Assembly: GCA_002722055.1 (NCBI GenBank)
Contig: PBKD01000015.1
Location: 1-64,000 of the forward strand
Source of the DNA: Rhodospirillaceae bacterium
Lineage (GTDB): Bacteria; Pseudomonadota; Alphaproteobacteria; SHVP01
Reading direction: 5' to 3'
DNA length: 64,000 bases
Of this stretch, positions 1-6,454 are shown in pieces (positions within the stretch are counted from its first letter, which is position 1; each line of letters begins with the position of its first letter). A program made the position numbers and the translations under genes. The notes beneath the pieces were generated by a model. The model was not told where the DNA came from and ran no database searches. It saw only the letters and a program-made list of their open reading frames with translations.

Positions 1-374
<374 letters not shown>

Positions 375-465
375 TTTATTGCAAACCGTGCGTGTGCAGT
401 AATCAATCCAAGTATAATTTATACAAGAACATCCAAATATTCTTTATATGTTAAATGATTTTAGT

Positions 466-585
466 TGGCCTGGTGGTTATTGCGGAGGGCCCCCACTCGA
501 TCCCATTCCGAACTCGGTTGTGAAATCCTCCAGCGCCGATGGTACTTCGTCTTAAGGCGTGGAAGAGTAGGTCGCTGCCAGGCCA
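466..585 (+). rRNA. 5S ribosomal RNA
   Basis: A complete 5S rRNA with the internal conserved block CGAACTCGG and terminal helix GGCCTGG/CCAGGCC. The helix extends outside the mature gene: 455-473 pairs with 578-596 over 19 positions with one G-U wobble, which probably marks the precursor processing stem. It lies about 90 nt after 23S and 50 nt before tRNA-fMet. The ends are good to within a few bases. Confidence 0.96.
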
Positions 586-635
586 ATTAAAATCATACTC
601 TTATTTATATTTTAAAACTTTTGATCTTTTTTTGA

Positions 636-712
636 CGCGGGGTGGAGCAGTCTGGTAGCTCGTTAGGCTCATAACCTAAAGGTCAGGGGTTCAAATCCTC
701 TCCCCGCAACCA
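636..712 (+). tRNA. initiator tRNA-Met (CAU)
   Basis: A 77-nt tRNA with anticodon CAT at 670-672 and an encoded CCA end at 710-712. Initiator hallmarks are visible: unpaired C1 and A72 (636 and 708), and an A11-U24 pair in the D stem. The anticodon stem is TTAGG/CCTAA, so two of the three usual G-C pairs next to the loop are kept and the third (29-41) is A-U. It closes the rRNA operon. Confidence 0.95.
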
Positions 713-951
713 ACTTTAATCACTAAAAAATTACTCTGCAGTTCTTTATGTTAAATATTTCCAATAATTACTTTACTTTTTGAGCCATAACCAGACACCA
801 AATTGTATTATTTTATTGGAAAATACTGCTATTATTTCCTAGCAAACTATAACTATACCAGAATCTAAAGATATAAAATAAAAACAATATACTTAATTAG
901 GCTTTTTTTAAATTATTAATATTAGCATAAACACTAATGAAATTCATTAAT

Positions 952-990
952 ACCCTCGTGGTGAAATTGGTAGACACAAAATACTTAAAA
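952..990 (+). pseudogene. truncated tRNA-Leu(UAA), 5' half only
   Basis: The sequence reads like the 5' half of a bacterial tRNA-Leu: acceptor strand ACCCTCG (952-958), TG, a D arm containing GAAATTGGTAGACAC, then an anticodon loop CTTAAAA with anticodon TAA. The 3' side of the anticodon stem no longer pairs properly. No long variable arm, GGTTCAA T arm or CGAGGGT-ACCA acceptor end follows; instead the DsbA-like gene starts at 1006. I call it a remnant, because a working gene would need the missing half. Confidence 0.7.
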
Positions 991-1005
991 TGGTTATCAT
1001 TTTGA

Positions 1006-1620
1006 ATGGATATAAGCGTTAAAATATATTCTGATTATGTTTGTCCATTTTGCTTCTTGGCAGAAGAACCACTAATGCAAGCTGTTGATTCATTTGATGG
1101 CGCCCAAATAGATATAGAATGGATGCCATTTGAATTACGTCCATATCCAACTCCTACATTGAAGCCAGAAGGTCAGTATCTCAGAGAATCTTGGAAGCAT
1201 TCAGTATACCCCATGGCGGAATCTATGGGCATAGCTATAAAGTTACCTGGTGTTTCGCCTCAGCCGTATACAAGGCTTGCCTTCGAAGGAAGTTTTGCTG
1301 CATCAGCTCAAAAAAAATCCAAAGAATATAACCATAGAATGTTTACTGCTTTTTTCCAAGATGGCTTAGATATAGGAAAGCAAAGTATATTAGAGTCTTG
1401 TGCAGCAGAAATAGGATTAGACTCTAATAAGTTTAGATCAGATCTAAGCTCGGGACGTTTCCGAAGTGAATGCCAACGTCAACTATTAATTGGTCGAGAC
1501 CTTTTAAAAATTTCATCAGTGCCTACATTTATAATAAATAATGATGTTAGAATTCCCGGAGTTCTCTCTAAAGAAACGCTGGTATCTATATTTGAAAAGC
1601 AACTTAGTTATCATAGATAG
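1006..1620 (+). CDS. DsbA-family oxidoreductase (FrnE-like)
   Basis: A 204-residue thioredoxin-fold protein of the DsbA/FrnE/2-hydroxychromene-2-carboxylate isomerase group. The redox motif CPFC is at residues 13-16, right after the first beta strand, and the cis-proline loop VPTFIIN is near residue 171. There is no signal peptide, so it is probably cytoplasmic, as for FrnE proteins. The ATG lies only about 15 nt after the tRNA-Leu remnant and has no clear Shine-Dalgarno sequence. The gene stands alone and converges with the luciferase-like gene at 1712. The substrate is unknown. Confidence 0.88.
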   Translation: MDISVKIYSDYVCPFCFLAEEPLMQAVDSFDGAQIDIEWMPFELRPYPTPTLKPEGQYLRESWKHSVYPMAESMGIAIKLPGVSPQPYTRLAFEGSFAASAQKKSKEYNHRMFTAFFQDGLDIGKQSILESCAAEIGLDSNKFRSDLSSGRFRSECQRQLLIGRDLLKISSVPTFIINNDVRIPGVLSKETLVSIFEKQLSYHR

Positions 1621-1711
1621 TTGTTCTACCTAATATAAAGTTTGGAAATTGAATTTTTTTTCTAGTAACCAAAAAATAATTTCTAAATATAAATTTATAA
1701 GACAGCTATCT

Positions 1712-2749
1712 TTAATTAAAGCTAGGCATAACTTCATTAATAAATGTTAAAAGGGAATTTTTCTTTGCTTCAAAATTTATACCTGAGTCAATCCAATAAG
1801 AAAATTCATCAAACCCAAGGTCTTCATATTTTTTTATAAGTTCAATTATTTCTTTAGAGGTACCAATTGCTAAATTATTTTTCAATATTTTAGGTGAGCA
1901 ATTTGGTATAGCTTCAATTTCTTCAAAAGACATTCTTTTAATTTGTCCTTGGTTGATTGGCTTTTCATTTTTAAACCATGCATTAAAATAAGCGTAAAAT
2001 TTAGAAAATTTTTGAGCAGCCTCATCTAATTCTTTTTGATTATTACTTACATAAGTATGTTGTAAAAGCATTATTTTTAAATTTGAGTGGAGGTTAAACT
2101 TCTTTTTAGCATCTATGAATCGGTTCATCAAAGTAATTACTTCTTCGTAACCTTGAGATAGGGGTGTTACTTGAACATTACAATTATTATTAATAGCAAA
2201 CTCGTGGCTACTTGGGTCTCTTGCAGCAATCCAGATAGGTGGGCCATTTGATTGTAAAGGTTTTGGTATAGAAGTAGATTTAGGAAATTTATAGAACTTA
2301 CCATTGTGGGAGTAATTTCCGTTCCATAAACCTCTAATTACTGGGACTATTTCTCTTAATCGTTCACCAGCTTCAAGTGCATCCATCCCAGGGATTAATC
2401 TATCATACTCATAACTATAGGCTCCTCTTGCAACACCTAATTCCAAACGACCAGAGGTTACGATATCCGTAATTGCAGCCTCTTCGGCTAGTTTTATAGG
2501 ATTCCAAAATGGGGCGACAATTGTTCCAGTGCCTAATCTAACATTATTTAATTTATTTGCTAAGTCTGCAATACTGACAAAAGGGTTTGGAGCAATTGTG
2601 AAGTCCATACAATGGTGCTCTCCAGTCCAAATTGTGTGCATACCCCCTTTATCTGCGATTTTGCACAAATCTATAAAGTCGTTATATAAATCTATGTATA
2701 ATTGGTTGTTATTATAACGTTCCATATGAACAAAAACAGAAAATTTCAT
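1712..2749 (-). CDS. LLM-class flavin-dependent monooxygenase (luciferase-like)
   Basis: A 345-residue TIM-barrel enzyme of the bacterial luciferase-like family. Family features are the N-terminal WTGEHH segment (about residues 41-46), the RLGTGTIVAPFWNP stretch and GRLELGVARGAY. Such enzymes use FMNH2 and O2 to oxygenate small organic substrates, with a separate reductase supplying the flavin. The ATG is 15 nt downstream of the alpha/beta hydrolase at 2764, so the two are probably co-transcribed. A pairing of monooxygenase and hydrolase suggests degradation of a ketone, ester or sulfur compound, but the substrate cannot be read from the sequence. Confidence 0.9.
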   Translation of the reverse strand: MKFSVFVHMERYNNNQLYIDLYNDFIDLCKIADKGGMHTIWTGEHHCMDFTIAPNPFVSIADLANKLNNVRLGTGTIVAPFWNPIKLAEEAAITDIVTSGRLELGVARGAYSYEYDRLIPGMDALEAGERLREIVPVIRGLWNGNYSHNGKFYKFPKSTSIPKPLQSNGPPIWIAARDPSSHEFAINNNCNVQVTPLSQGYEEVITLMNRFIDAKKKFNLHSNLKIMLLQHTYVSNNQKELDEAAQKFSKFYAYFNAWFKNEKPINQGQIKRMSFEEIEAIPNCSPKILKNNLAIGTSKEIIELIKKYEDLGFDEFSYWIDSGINFEAKKNSLLTFINEVMPSFN

Positions 2750-2763
2750 AAAATTAAATCACC

Positions 2764-3576
2764 CTATTTTGAGTTCATAGTAATAAATGATTCTATTATT
2801 CTATTTACTTCGTCAGAATGTGACATCATAGCCATATGTCCAGCTCCTTTAATTTCATTAAAAGCACCTAAAAAACAAAAATTTGCCATATTTTTACTCA
2901 TCAGAGTTGTGGAGTTTAAATCTTCTGATCCAGTGATGAAAGTAATTGGTACCTGAATTTTTTTAAGCACTTCTTTAGCTATACCTCTTTGATTTGCAAA
3001 AACATCATAAGCATTAAGATATCCTTCTTTATTAGATTCTAACAACCATTGTCTGCAAACATTTGAAATCTCATTTAAATAACCTTTTGGGCTTTTCCCA
3101 AACCATCTAACTATTGTTAGCTCTATTTCTTTATTCATATTTTGTGATTTAAGTTCTCTTAAACGTAATTTTACTTTTTTTAGCGCTTCATCGCTTCTTT
3201 GATAGATACAGTTTAATGCTATAATTCCTGCGCAATTTTTTTTACGTTGCTTAGCATAATTAATTGCAATTAACGCGCCTAAAGAATGACCAATAATTAT
3301 AAATGAATTATGAATTACTTCATCCACAAATAATTTAATTTCTTCTATGTATGAATTTAAATTATTAGATTCTATTTTCAAATTATCACTCTCGCCATGA
3401 CCAGGTAGGTCAATTGCAAAAATAGTATAATCTTGGCTAAAAAAATTTATTTGAGCAGACCAACTTTCTGCTTTTAAGCCAACACCATGAATCATTAAAA
3501 GATTAGGTCCGTTTCCAGCTTTAAAATAAGCAATATTATTTTTAGATTTATTTCGAGGAAGTGGTTTCCACATCAT
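2764..3576 (-). CDS. alpha/beta hydrolase
   Basis: A 270-residue single-domain alpha/beta hydrolase. The oxyanion region is MIHGVGLK, the turn before the nucleophile is DLPGHGESD, and the nucleophile elbow is GHSLGA with serine. The C-terminal catalytic histidine is in GAGHMAMM. It is the first gene of a two-gene minus-strand operon with the luciferase-like monooxygenase. Start choice is ambiguous between two adjacent ATG codons (MMWK). The substrate is unknown. Confidence 0.9.
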   Translation of the reverse strand: MMWKPLPRNKSKNNIAYFKAGNGPNLLMIHGVGLKAESWSAQINFFSQDYTIFAIDLPGHGESDNLKIESNNLNSYIEEIKLFVDEVIHNSFIIIGHSLGALIAINYAKQRKKNCAGIIALNCIYQRSDEALKKVKLRLRELKSQNMNKEIELTIVRWFGKSPKGYLNEISNVCRQWLLESNKEGYLNAYDVFANQRGIAKEVLKKIQVPITFITGSEDLNSTTLMSKNMANFCFLGAFNEIKGAGHMAMMSHSDEVNRIIESFITMNSK

Positions 3577-3737
3577 GCCCTAGTTCTTTAAAAAAAGGTC
3601 AATATTTTTAATTTCATTTAATAATCCTTTAAAGGTATAAAGTTTAAAATGCATTTATTTTATGATACTATTAATTTAACCTAAAATTAGCATATATAAT
3701 TTAAAATTTAATTATTTTTCTCTATAATTCTGTTTAT

Positions 3738-4595
3738 ATGCGTAAAGTAATTGATATAAAAAACTGTATGAAAACATTTGAAGGTGACGGAATACCTGTA
3801 ACTAGGGCCTTTCCTATTCCTTCAATGAGAGAGTATGATCCATTTTTACTTTTTGATCACTTTGGTCCTATTAATTACGAACCTGGGGGTGCTACAGGAG
3901 TGCCAGCGCATCCTCATTGTGGATTTGAGGCAGTAACTTATTTACTTGAAGGGGAGGTTGAGCATAAAGATTCATGGGGTGGTCAAGCAATAATTGAATC
4001 AGGAGATATTCAATGGATGACAACTGGATCTGGTCTTATACATTCTGAGTTGGTGACCAAAAAATTTAAGATTAATGGTGGTATAATGCAAGGCTTGCAA
4101 ATTTGGGTGAATCTTCCTGCTAAAGATAAAAATGTCAAGCCATGGTATCAGCATATAAAAAAAATTGATATACCAACTATAAATAAAGAAGATGGTGTAA
4201 TTGTAAAAGTTCTTGTGGGAAATGTAGAAAATATTTTTTCTTCTATTCAAACACAATCGCCGGTTTCTATTTTTGATATTCAATTTAGTGAACCAAAGCA
4301 AGTCACTTTTGATATCAATAGAAGACAAATTGCTATGATATATATTATTGATGGAGAGCTTAAATTTTCTGAAGTAAATAAAATAGCTAAAAAAGGTCAA
4401 ATGGTTTTCTTTGATCAAAGTAGTGATGAGATTCAAATAATTAGCAAATCAATCAGGGGCTCTTACCTTGTTTTAGCCGGGGAGCCATTAAATGAAAATG
4501 TTGTTCGCTATGGTCCCTTTGTAACCAATACTGAGCATCAAATGAAACAAGCTATAGCTAATTTTCAAAATGGAGAAATGGGTAAATTATCTTAA
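3738..4595 (+). CDS. pirin family protein
   Basis: A 285-residue bicupin of the pirin family. The usual iron ligands are present: His58 and His60 in HPHCGFE, and His102 and Glu104 in GLIHSE, with further conserved acidic residues in LLEGEVEH. Bacterial pirins include quercetin-2,3-dioxygenase-like enzymes and redox-sensing regulators; the sequence does not separate these. The gene is divergent from the hydrolase at 2764, with 161 nt of AT-rich spacer holding both promoters. It has no obvious functional partner nearby. Confidence 0.92.
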   Translation: MRKVIDIKNCMKTFEGDGIPVTRAFPIPSMREYDPFLLFDHFGPINYEPGGATGVPAHPHCGFEAVTYLLEGEVEHKDSWGGQAIIESGDIQWMTTGSGLIHSELVTKKFKINGGIMQGLQIWVNLPAKDKNVKPWYQHIKKIDIPTINKEDGVIVKVLVGNVENIFSSIQTQSPVSIFDIQFSEPKQVTFDINRRQIAMIYIIDGELKFSEVNKIAKKGQMVFFDQSSDEIQIISKSIRGSYLVLAGEPLNENVVRYGPFVTNTEHQMKQAIANFQNGEMGKLS

Positions 4596-4759
4596 ATTAA
4601 ATTTAGTTATCATTTTTCTTTATTTTAATAATATTTAACAAAAATTTCTATAGAAGGTAATTGGATAGAAATTTTTTTCTAAAATATAAATTATTTTATT
4701 AAAATTCTAAATTTTACTGTAAATTATTTTTTTATTATTTTTTTTTCAAAAATGAGGGG

Positions 4760-5182
4760 ATGCTTTTGGATAACTTTACTCCTTTTTCAGCAATTGTTGG
4801 TGGGGTTCTTATTGGCCTTTCTATTTGTATTCTCCTTTTTTTTAATCACAAATTAGCTGGTATAAGTAGTGTTATAGGAGGGTTATTTAAATTCAATTTT
4901 GATGATAAACTCTGGAGGATATTCTTTCTTTTTGGAATGATTTTAGGTGCGTTAATTTGGTTTGAGTTTAATGAGAGTTCAATAGTAACCTTTGACTCGA
5001 ATCCTTGGATCATTCTTGCTGGAGGTTTGCTTACAGGTTTTGGAACACAGCTAGGTTCTGGATGCACTTCAGGGCATGGGGTTTATGGCATTGCAAAATT
5101 CTCAATTCGCTCAATAGTAGCAACTTTCATTTTTTTGTTTTTCGGAATGTTAACTGTTTTTATTCAACGCAATCTTTTCTAG
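4760..5182 (+). CDS. YeeE/YedE family membrane protein, first half
   Basis: A 140-residue integral membrane protein with hydrophobic segments near residues 8-28, 33-45, 52-70, 82-98 and 115-136. The family signature GSGCTSGHGVYG contains the conserved Cys102. With the next gene it forms the two-protein version of YeeE/YedE transporters, which include thiosulfate carriers in characterised members. The ribosome binding site GAGGGG (4754-4759) abuts the ATG directly, so the true start may be the in-frame TTG at 4766. It ends 8 nt before the second half gene. Confidence 0.9.
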   Translation: MLLDNFTPFSAIVGGVLIGLSICILLFFNHKLAGISSVIGGLFKFNFDDKLWRIFFLFGMILGALIWFEFNESSIVTFDSNPWIILAGGLLTGFGTQLGSGCTSGHGVYGIAKFSIRSIVATFIFLFFGMLTVFIQRNLF

Positions 5183-5190
5183 GTAGAGTT

Positions 5191-5604
5191 ATGAATAGAA
5201 TAAACTTTATATCTTTTTCTTGTGGTATTCTTTTTGGTTTAGGTTTGGCAGTTTCTGAAATGACAAACCCTATGAAAGTTAAGGCTTTCCTTGATATAAC
5301 AGGAAAATGGGATCCAAGTTTAGCATTTGTTATGACTAGCTCTATAGCCGTAACCTATATTTTTTTAAAATATATATATTTAAAAAGAAAAAACTCTAAA
5401 ATTTTTACAGAAATAAAACTTAATGTATTTGACTTTAAATTAGTTGTTGGTGCAATTATATTTGGAGTTGGTTGGGGGCTTGTTGGGTTTTGTCCAGGCC
5501 CATCAGTAGCAGCTTTATCTGACATTCAAATTAACACAATATACTTTGTCATATCAATGATTGTTGGAATATTAATACATAGATTTTTATATAAAAAATT
5601 ATAA
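5191..5604 (+). CDS. YeeE/YedE family membrane protein, second half
   Basis: A 137-residue membrane protein, partner of the gene at 4760. It carries the matching signature GVGWGLVGFCPGP with Cys101 near the C-terminal half. I chose the ATG at 5191 because it follows the upstream stop by 8 nt and starts the family domain; a longer open frame to 5005 only overlaps the first gene. The pair probably imports a sulfur compound such as thiosulfate, inferred from family members. No sulfur-regulator gene is adjacent. Confidence 0.9.
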   Translation: MNRINFISFSCGILFGLGLAVSEMTNPMKVKAFLDITGKWDPSLAFVMTSSIAVTYIFLKYIYLKRKNSKIFTEIKLNVFDFKLVVGAIIFGVGWGLVGFCPGPSVAALSDIQINTIYFVISMIVGILIHRFLYKKL

Positions 5605-5773
5605 AGAATTCTTATAAATTTATAACTTACGACCAAAAAAATTCATTGGGCCTCAGTTTTATGAGATAAATTATCAAAAATACTCAAAATATAAAATATA
5701 AATATAATTATTTGTATAATGATTGTAATAATTAGTTATTTATAAATGATAAATATTCAAAGGATAAAAAGAT

Positions 5774-6454
5774 ATGTCTTTAAAATTAATTTATTTCAAA
5801 ATGCAAGCTTTAGCAGAGGCCCCACAAATGCTCATGAACTATGCAGGTATTGAATATGAATACATTATGGCATGGGATTACTACAATGATGAGTGGAAAA
5901 ATATTAAACCTAAAATTCCTTTCAAGCAATTGCCACTTCTTATTATAGATGAAAAACATGAGATACCTCAAAGTCTTGCAATATTGTCTTATATAGAAAA
6001 ACTTGCTGATTTGAATATTGAGGATCCCATCATTGCTGCAAAAGCAGATGCTATATTAAATGGAGCTCAGGAGTTGTTTATTCCGCTAAACCCTACAGTC
6101 AATTTTGCAGTAGGAGAAGATTTCAATAATAAGAGAGATGAGATGATGCCATCTTTATTGTCTAAATTTGATGACCTTGATAGATTACTAAAATTAAGCA
6201 ATGCAAGATATTTCATTGATGATAAACCTCGTGCATGTGATTTTTTAGCTTTTCATCATCTAGAATTATCAAGAAAACTTGATAGTTCAATTTTAAATAA
6301 ATTTCCAAAATTGAAAAAGTTTGTTAACGACATAGAGGAAATTGATTCAATTACTGCTTACTTAGATAATAGACCTGAGTTAATAGATGTAAGCATAGCT
6401 CCTAAACTTGTAATTGATGGAGTTCCAGAGTCTACTGGTGTTAAGAAAGAATAG
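5774..6454 (+). CDS. glutathione S-transferase-like protein
   Basis: A 226-residue protein with an N-terminal thioredoxin-like domain (residues about 4-80, conserved cis-proline in KQLPLLII followed by IPQSLAI) and a helical C-terminal domain with the N-capping-like segment ARACDF. It resembles sigma-class or prostaglandin-synthase-type GSTs and has a Tyr near the N-terminus (YFKMQ). A clear AAGGAT ribosome site precedes the ATG. It is 10 nt upstream of a TauD-like dioxygenase gene and probably co-transcribed with it. The substrate is unknown. Confidence 0.85.
   Translation: MSLKLIYFKMQALAEAPQMLMNYAGIEYEYIMAWDYYNDEWKNIKPKIPFKQLPLLIIDEKHEIPQSLAILSYIEKLADLNIEDPIIAAKADAILNGAQELFIPLNPTVNFAVGEDFNNKRDEMMPSLLSKFDDLDRLLKLSNARYFIDDKPRACDFLAFHHLELSRKLDSSILNKFPKLKKFVNDIEEIDSITAYLDNRPELIDVSIAPKLVIDGVPESTGVKKE

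Follow-up and report, generated by a model that had tools for sequence, protein, structure and literature searches.

At the downstream edge of an rRNA operon, the window (the whole 64-kb stretch of DNA analysed here) carries the 5' half of a tRNA-Leu(UAA) gene directly ahead of a frnE-like gene, which raises the question of where this half gene came from and how it reached a site between two ordinary host genes. A preliminary description, made from the sequence alone, had suggested that an exchange at the anticodon loop joined frnE to the operon's edge, and that the transcribed half could serve as a leader. The locus reads as follows:

Window start: 23S rRNA gene, inside which the window begins, upstream of the 5S rRNA and tRNA-fMet genes
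469-583: 5S rRNA (Rfam)
636-712, + strand: tRNA-fMet (ARAGORN, Rfam), the left native anchor, with the same gene and order in L044/L138
713-802, no strand: spacer of native sequence, with an ortholog in the nearest relative as far as CAGACACCAAA (792-802)
803-990, + strand: insert, missing from the nearest relative, with features assigned from 836 onward
846-865, + strand: decayed arm-type direct repeat pair ACTATAACT / ACCAGAATC, 11-nt spacing, paired by eye
888-951, + strand: decayed tRNA-Leu promoter with its upstream region, TATACT-20-TATTAA (promoter-only profile)
952-990, + strand: tRNA-Leu(UAA) 5' half, spanning base 1 to the end of the anticodon loop (CTTAAAA)
971-976, + strand: D-arm sequence TAGACA, the putative -35 element of a hybrid promoter for frnE
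991-1005, + strand: native frnE leader, close in L138 and less close in L140
995-1000, + strand: TATCAT, proposed -10 element, 5 nt before the ATG, inside the native frnE leader
1006-1620, + strand: frnE-like DsbA-family oxidoreductase, 204 aa (open reading frame; PF01323 DSBA, E 1.9e-25)

The half itself is real, as first described. Positions 952-990 are identical to the SAR11-like tRNA-Leu gene at 36 of 39 bases; base 1 (G in the tRNA, A in the window) and two positions in the anticodon stem account for the differences. The likeness lies far above chance in the profile search reported below (E 8.2e-29). Base 991 (T) is also common to tRNA and window, which then stops matching after tRNA base 40, at the known crossover: the likeness ends in the anticodon loop (window TGG, tRNA TCC) and not at the 3' side of the anticodon stem, where it had first been placed. 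A tRNA scan of the kind suggested in the preliminary description bears out that no T arm follows, since ARAGORN found only tRNA-fMet in the window, with no complete tRNA, tmRNA or intron-split tRNA at the half, and Rfam (E<=1, positions 1-6000) returned only 23S, 5S and tRNA-fMet and no intron family. The full cloverleaf, T arm and 3' acceptor strand of a functional tRNA-Leu(UAA) are thus missing at 952-990, as is the intron after the anticodon that marks a tRNA-Leu with a group I intron. The frnE ATG at 1006 lies 15 nt past the loop, in agreement with the initial estimate. The extent first given for the feature, 952-1010, does contain the half, but related sequence continues about 115 nt further upstream (836-951).

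Comparison of the junction among relatives, also proposed at the outset, revealed an insert. The nearest relative, G001 (probably one genome with the MarineAlpha2_Bin1 contig L138, the two being counted as one relative), belongs to the same genus, has a FrnE 84% identical and shows the order 23S-5S-tRNA-fMet-frnE without the insert. By blastn, window 711-802 aligns with it at 72.8% (E 3.8e-7) and position 990 onward at 81.5% (E 8e-174), while nothing in its locus aligns with the stretch between 802 and 990, leaving an insert of about 188 bp (803-990) between orthologous flanks. The native left flank ends with CAGACACCAAA and the right one restarts at TGGTTATC; in the nearest relative 9 bases separate these flank ends (8 if the preceding A is assigned to the flank). 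Nine bases is about the size of a tyrosine-recombinase overlap. Since tRNA-fMet and frnE are already adjacent in this relative, the only one that shares the rrn-fMet-frnE order, frnE neighboured the operon before the insert arrived; the suggestion that an exchange brought frnE to the rRNA operon is therefore abandoned, the exchange having instead put about 188 bp between existing neighbours.

Among more distant relatives, frnE lies in other surroundings in L139 (FrnE 80%) and L140 (FrnE 74%), and tRNA-Leu-like sequence before frnE is absent from both, although L139 carries a complete tRNA-Lys about 410 nt upstream. The preliminary description would have read relatives without tRNA-like sequence here as evidence against it: as regards tRNA-Leu they indeed have none, but this indicates a lineage-specific insertion and not an illusion. 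G002, the second congener examined (64% complete), gave no frnE match, and L141 (FrnE 59%) was left out of the leader alignment. Because the sequence past the anticodon loop aligns with the relatives' frnE leaders, those bases are native frnE leader, and because this leader is much alike near the ATG in the nearest relative, the missing clear ribosome site is not a consequence of the insert. An ordinary displaced half beside a prophage was rejected, as the next gene is frnE with its native leader.

Two intact tRNA-Leu(UAA) genes (L031 and L037) occur elsewhere in the window's own genome, where the preliminary description proposed to look for one, but each agrees with the half at only 29/39 bases, the SAR11-like gene reaching 36/39, so that a decayed own tRNA-Leu was discarded as its source and no intact target tRNA of the same sequence was found in a survey that left 26 of 176 tRNA candidates unscored. 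DNA searches of this genome returned no second copy of the insert, its other matches being short. The 34 tRNAs found in it include no tRNA-Leu(UAG), Asp, Val(UAC), Ile(GAU) or Ala(UGC), probably owing to contig gaps or to the 26 unscored candidates. With the 101-nt module of a viral contig (L101) as query, 10 of 385 genomes sampled from the class matched, the window's own included, and the promoter part of this module was matched at length only in the window's genome and in one other, G214. A mainly non-tRNA query matched the window's own genome alone, both among 10 genomes of its order and among 398 sampled from the phylum, the latter sample evidently holding no SAR11-like genome with the module. 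By these sequence comparisons, the insert is foreign and SAR11-like in kind.

G214, a 1.2-Mb genome, belongs to another family, the probable source. It carries two copies of the module at the ends of a 1.66-kb island. An intact tRNA-Leu(UAA) gene begins with one of them, which is preceded by a direct-repeat pair; the second is a half on its own, and the sequence upstream of it resembles the end of a chromosomal gene. Judged from sequence, this is the geometry expected of an element that would bring a promoter and a 5' half, rebuild the tRNA gene and displace the original half. We call the family SAR11-like on account of its genome size and because its tRNA-Leu half is identical to that of pelagiphages. 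A 79-nt module query matched 153 of 197 sampled genomes of this family (E<=1e-6), many over the tRNA part only, and about 50 of these had at least two matches (counted by eye, with at most four candidates scored per genome).

We read 15 stretches from 14 genomes, picked for having several matches (L249-L251 lie outside this set). Stacks hold up to four copies spaced 0.9-15 kb apart, the last copy in the stretch being a complete tRNA in 13 of 14 genomes. The next gene is NAD kinase-like in 7/8 stacks with listed open reading frames (one, L285, by Pfam) and also in G214; in L294 the stack is followed by another open reading frame that is not NAD kinase-like. Among the cargo, Pfam recognised a C-5 cytosine DNA methylase, PhyH, a methyltransferase and, in a protein of 1528 aa, AAA domains of helicase type. 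Of 28 half copies, 26 match the tRNA up to base 39 or 40 and no further. In this count one copy enters twice (L283 and L284 overlap), and one of the two exceptions reflects a mismatch within the half, its end being no different. None of the 15 stretches contains an integrase open reading frame (at least 100 aa, phmmer E<=1e-5), and PF00589 matched 13 of the 14 genomes (14 matches in total) always outside the stretches read, usually as one 325-aa gene elsewhere in the genome; a 522-aa open reading frame in L282, considered as an integrase candidate, had no Pfam hit. Many tandem cassettes (L282-L295 and L248) end in arm repeats, tRNA promoter and tRNA 5' half; by eye, the arm repeats differ between cassettes and the two repeats of one pair agree.

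The insert matches such right ends. A GATAAAATAA-like motif served to divide 42 copies into 21 right ends (20 distinct: 19 from SAR11-like stretches and one from L101) and 21 others, and a profile was trained on the right ends only, the window remaining outside the training set. The profile's sole match in 64 kb is 836-989 (E 8.2e-29); at E<=1 none was obtained in 20 mononucleotide shuffles of the window, nor in L044, L138, L139 and L140. The arm part alone matched 842-884 (E 0.0019), so that the repeats at 846-865 fall within the region where cassette right ends have their arms; the promoter part by itself gave 898-950 (E 1.7e-8) and a second, chance-level match (E 0.81). As the arm, promoter and half matches follow one another in order over 836-989, the window holds a right end in the right order, with arm-type repeats beside the tRNA core. 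These repeats, which are decayed, may have served as integrase arms. The window module is 81% identical to the best module copy compared, and its decay is visible in the blurred arm repeats, in the changed anticodon stem and, by eye, in the promoter, which reads TTTACT-17-TATAAA in intact copies against TATACT-20-TATTAA in the window, a spacing of 20 instead of 17. The site differs from that of a cassette inserted in a tRNA-Leu gene, as it lies between tRNA-fMet and frnE, and the four PF00589 matches of the window's genome all lie away from its contig C15. One of them (G000:C6:167743-168857, a 236-aa open frame) is found about 570 nt from a tRNA-Val(GAC).

The same half occurs in phages. Among named phages, the best matches running past base 1 came from the Pelagibacter phages HTVC105P (E 5e-9) and HTVC109P (E 4e-4) and the Mediterranean S35C6 (E 5e-9), a member of group G8. 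In all three, a half with anticodon stem and no T arm stands behind the integrase gene, at 84 nt in HTVC105P and S35C6 and 86 nt in HTVC109P, and precedes the RNA polymerase gene. By analogy, we read it as attP, on the basis of two reports: the available text of PMC3861242 describes a G8 phage with an integrase and a 46-bp fragment identical to the tRNA-Leu of Pelagibacter HTCC7211, and that of PMC8776855 describes T7-like cyanophages that integrate in tRNA-Leu via such a site, as detected by PCR. Related phages integrate at the tRNA-Leu(TAG) of SAR11 bacteria, according to the available part of PMC6811365.

In IMG/VR, 53 stretches with a 26-nt core gave 55 copies: 20 intron-like, 14 halves with an integrase open reading frame, 14 other halves (including L087, which looks intron-type), 5 complete tRNAs and 2 cut off. 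The pelagiphage-like integrase frames, recognised by phmmer, end 27-84 nt upstream of the half in those 14 of 55 copies, consistent with the integrase-type exchange first suggested. In three viral contigs (L101, L091 and L113) the similarity extends upstream of the half, L101 being 84% identical over window 866-991, and a stricter pattern over the IMG/VR stretches added no further contig; BLAST E-values against these 53 stretches, pre-chosen by the core, carry no chance estimate. Among 50,697 named phage records, none matches the part upstream of the half at length and none covers at least 80% of the L101 module, HTVC105P and S35C6 matching the half alone. L101 is a phage contig, judged T4-like from its PhoH and methyltransferase genes, with a cassette right end standing before a gene start (3765-5095). 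It is a possible carrier phage: the last cassette of G550 (L293) encodes a homolog (E 2.7e-64) of its SHOCT-like protein. PHROGs of unknown function match this protein too, so that it may be a phage gene.

Taken together, we consider it likely that the insert is the relic of the right end of a SAR11-like tRNA-Leu(UAA) cassette or phage that recombined at a non-tRNA site before frnE. The half tRNA would be the core of an attachment site, and the insert a decayed right end made of integrase arm repeats, tRNA promoter and tRNA-Leu(UAA) 5' half. In its usual host, such an element would recombine in the anticodon loop; the half that it carries, with its own promoter, would rebuild the tRNA gene, and the original half would be displaced to the far end of the element. 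Here, in an alphaproteobacterium of another family, the element end would have been joined to the frnE leader, probably by an integrase acting at a poor secondary site, and the remainder of the element would subsequently have been lost; no integrase, cargo or left end remains at the site. That the exchange took place at the anticodon loop, as first proposed, agrees with a break lying where 26/28 SAR11-like halves stop and within a few bases of that in the phage copies.

The join would also have preserved promoter spacing. Before frnE, L138 and L140 share T(G/A)GACA-18-TA(T/A)(C/G)AT-5-ATG, which by its sequence is a predicted leaderless-type promoter and is absent from L139. The window retains the native TATCAT with the TAGACA of the tRNA D arm 18 bp away, at the position taken by a native T(A/G)GACA in two of three relatives; the tRNA-derived box would thus have replaced the native -35. 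A box with five of six bases stands at 18 bp from 0.6% of window endpoints and at 16-18 bp from 1.7%, the corresponding counts within the insert being 1/116 and 3/116. The region holds 3 promoter-like sites against a shuffled mean of 2.8, and the promoter scan, applied to a SAR11-like copy, did not return the promoter seen by eye; since the site count is no higher than chance, we infer promoter function only, and frnE may have kept a predicted hybrid promoter with a tRNA-derived -35. The proposal of a transcribed half acting as leader has lost ground, because the insert's tRNA promoter is decayed and the best promoter match starts at the frnE ATG, downstream of the half.

How the end was joined is best judged against illegitimate capture, in which a SAR11 or pelagiphage fragment acquired by transformation or abortive infection would have been fixed by end-joining or microhomology without any integrase. 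Such a capture would account for the presence of just an end fragment, for a left edge at no recognised element boundary and for a contig without an integrase gene. The native site also shows no significant likeness to the core in free register (local alignment p 0.25 for L138, 0.20 for the joined window flanks, 0.68 for L140 and 0.63 for L139). Against it, the right edge coincides with the stop point of 26/28 SAR11-like halves, and the join keeps the 18-bp promoter spacing that 0.6% of endpoints would give (1.7% for 16-18 bp). In the fixed register of the junction, the native leader agrees with the tRNA core at 12/21 positions in L138 and 11/21 in L140 (background 0.6% and 2%, from window 21-mers with at most 9 G+C) and shows no likeness in L139 (5-7/21); this comparison, much of whose score comes from the -35 box, was set up after the free alignment had failed and the promoter spacing had been noticed, and is suggestive. 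We therefore regard capture without an integrase as rather unlikely, and favour an integrase acting at a poor site over end-joining.

The remaining explanations fare worse. A complete SAR11-type tRNA-Leu gene, transferred and later stripped of its 3' half, would be expected to bring its promoter region, which the 5' half does retain; the native leader, however, resumes at the anticodon loop, and a deletion would have had to hit the old insertion point by chance, which makes this course very improbable. That the half was retained for a working transcript, as a leader or a tRNA-half-like RNA, draws on its position directly 5' of frnE and is hardly credible given a promoter decayed in spacing and hexamers (by eye), two changed anticodon-stem bases and a best promoter match starting at the ATG, past the half. 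An assembly error deserves thought at a site less than 1 kb from the contig end, at an rRNA operon, judged from the assembled sequence and not from reads; both flanks are nevertheless orthologous and in the right order in the nearest relative, so that no single false join would produce the insert, and the copy is unlike every module copy compared (best 81%), leaving this option with next to no weight.

The relic, as we read it, resembles several known systems without coinciding with any. The T7-like pelagiphage sites (Pelagivirus HTVC105P, HTVC109P, S35C6) share its tRNA-Leu 5' half, whereas the window has no phage gene, its target is the frnE leader instead of a tRNA, and its upstream part is matched by cassettes and IMG/VR contigs instead of named phages. 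In Islander genomic islands with a 5' fragment, the fragment marks the island end and the crossover lies at the anticodon loop, as in the window, which differs in lacking an intact tRNA of the same sequence, an integrase at the site and an island between two sites; by the count in PMC4383910, a 5' tDNA fragment occurs in 159 islands and a 3' fragment in 3760, and 2083 have an anticodon-centred site. The SAR11-like tandem cassettes come closest: they share the break point and the succession of arm repeats, promoter and 5' half, the window by contrast having just one end, decayed and located outside a tRNA gene, in another family. Tycheposons of Prochlorococcus and Methylophilaceae are likewise cargo elements at tRNA genes of streamlined marine bacteria (PMC10872708, in the portion available); they are described with a tyrosine recombinase, and none was found in the 15 SAR11-like stretches. 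In the accessible part of PMC12416821, tyrosine recombinases and tRNA genes are reported beside a transferred operon in Pelagibacterales. SAR11 tandem cassettes carrying a tRNA 5' half are not described in the literature searched, which included the available text of PMC7318151 and PMC9004378, with subscription papers mostly outside it; this is weak evidence of novelty.

We tentatively propose, as one possible scenario, that integrases of T7-like pelagiphages, which use the same site, move the recombinase-less SAR11-like cassettes in trans, and that cassette ends enter T4-like phages such as L101 and could leave the clade, the window being a fossil of such an escape whose D arm is now a -35 element. 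The odd half gene would thereby become a readable record of a mobile element crossing between families of marine bacteria, and would show how an attachment site could join a host promoter. If recombinase-less cassettes hold, they offer a testable route of gene gain in streamlined, abundant ocean bacteria.

Two further observations concern the viral contigs. A group I intron follows the tRNA-Leu(UAA) 5' half on several of them (L085, L096, L099, L116 and other IMG/VR stretches), reaching the Rfam gathering score in 4 of 7 stretches scanned, with 20/55 copies alike by motif. In L091 (291-3051) and L113 (268-2908), the T7-like RNA polymerase is apparently encoded by two open reading frames with an 11-nt overlap in both contigs (the first L113 frame being unscanned), which would reflect either a frameshift or a true split.
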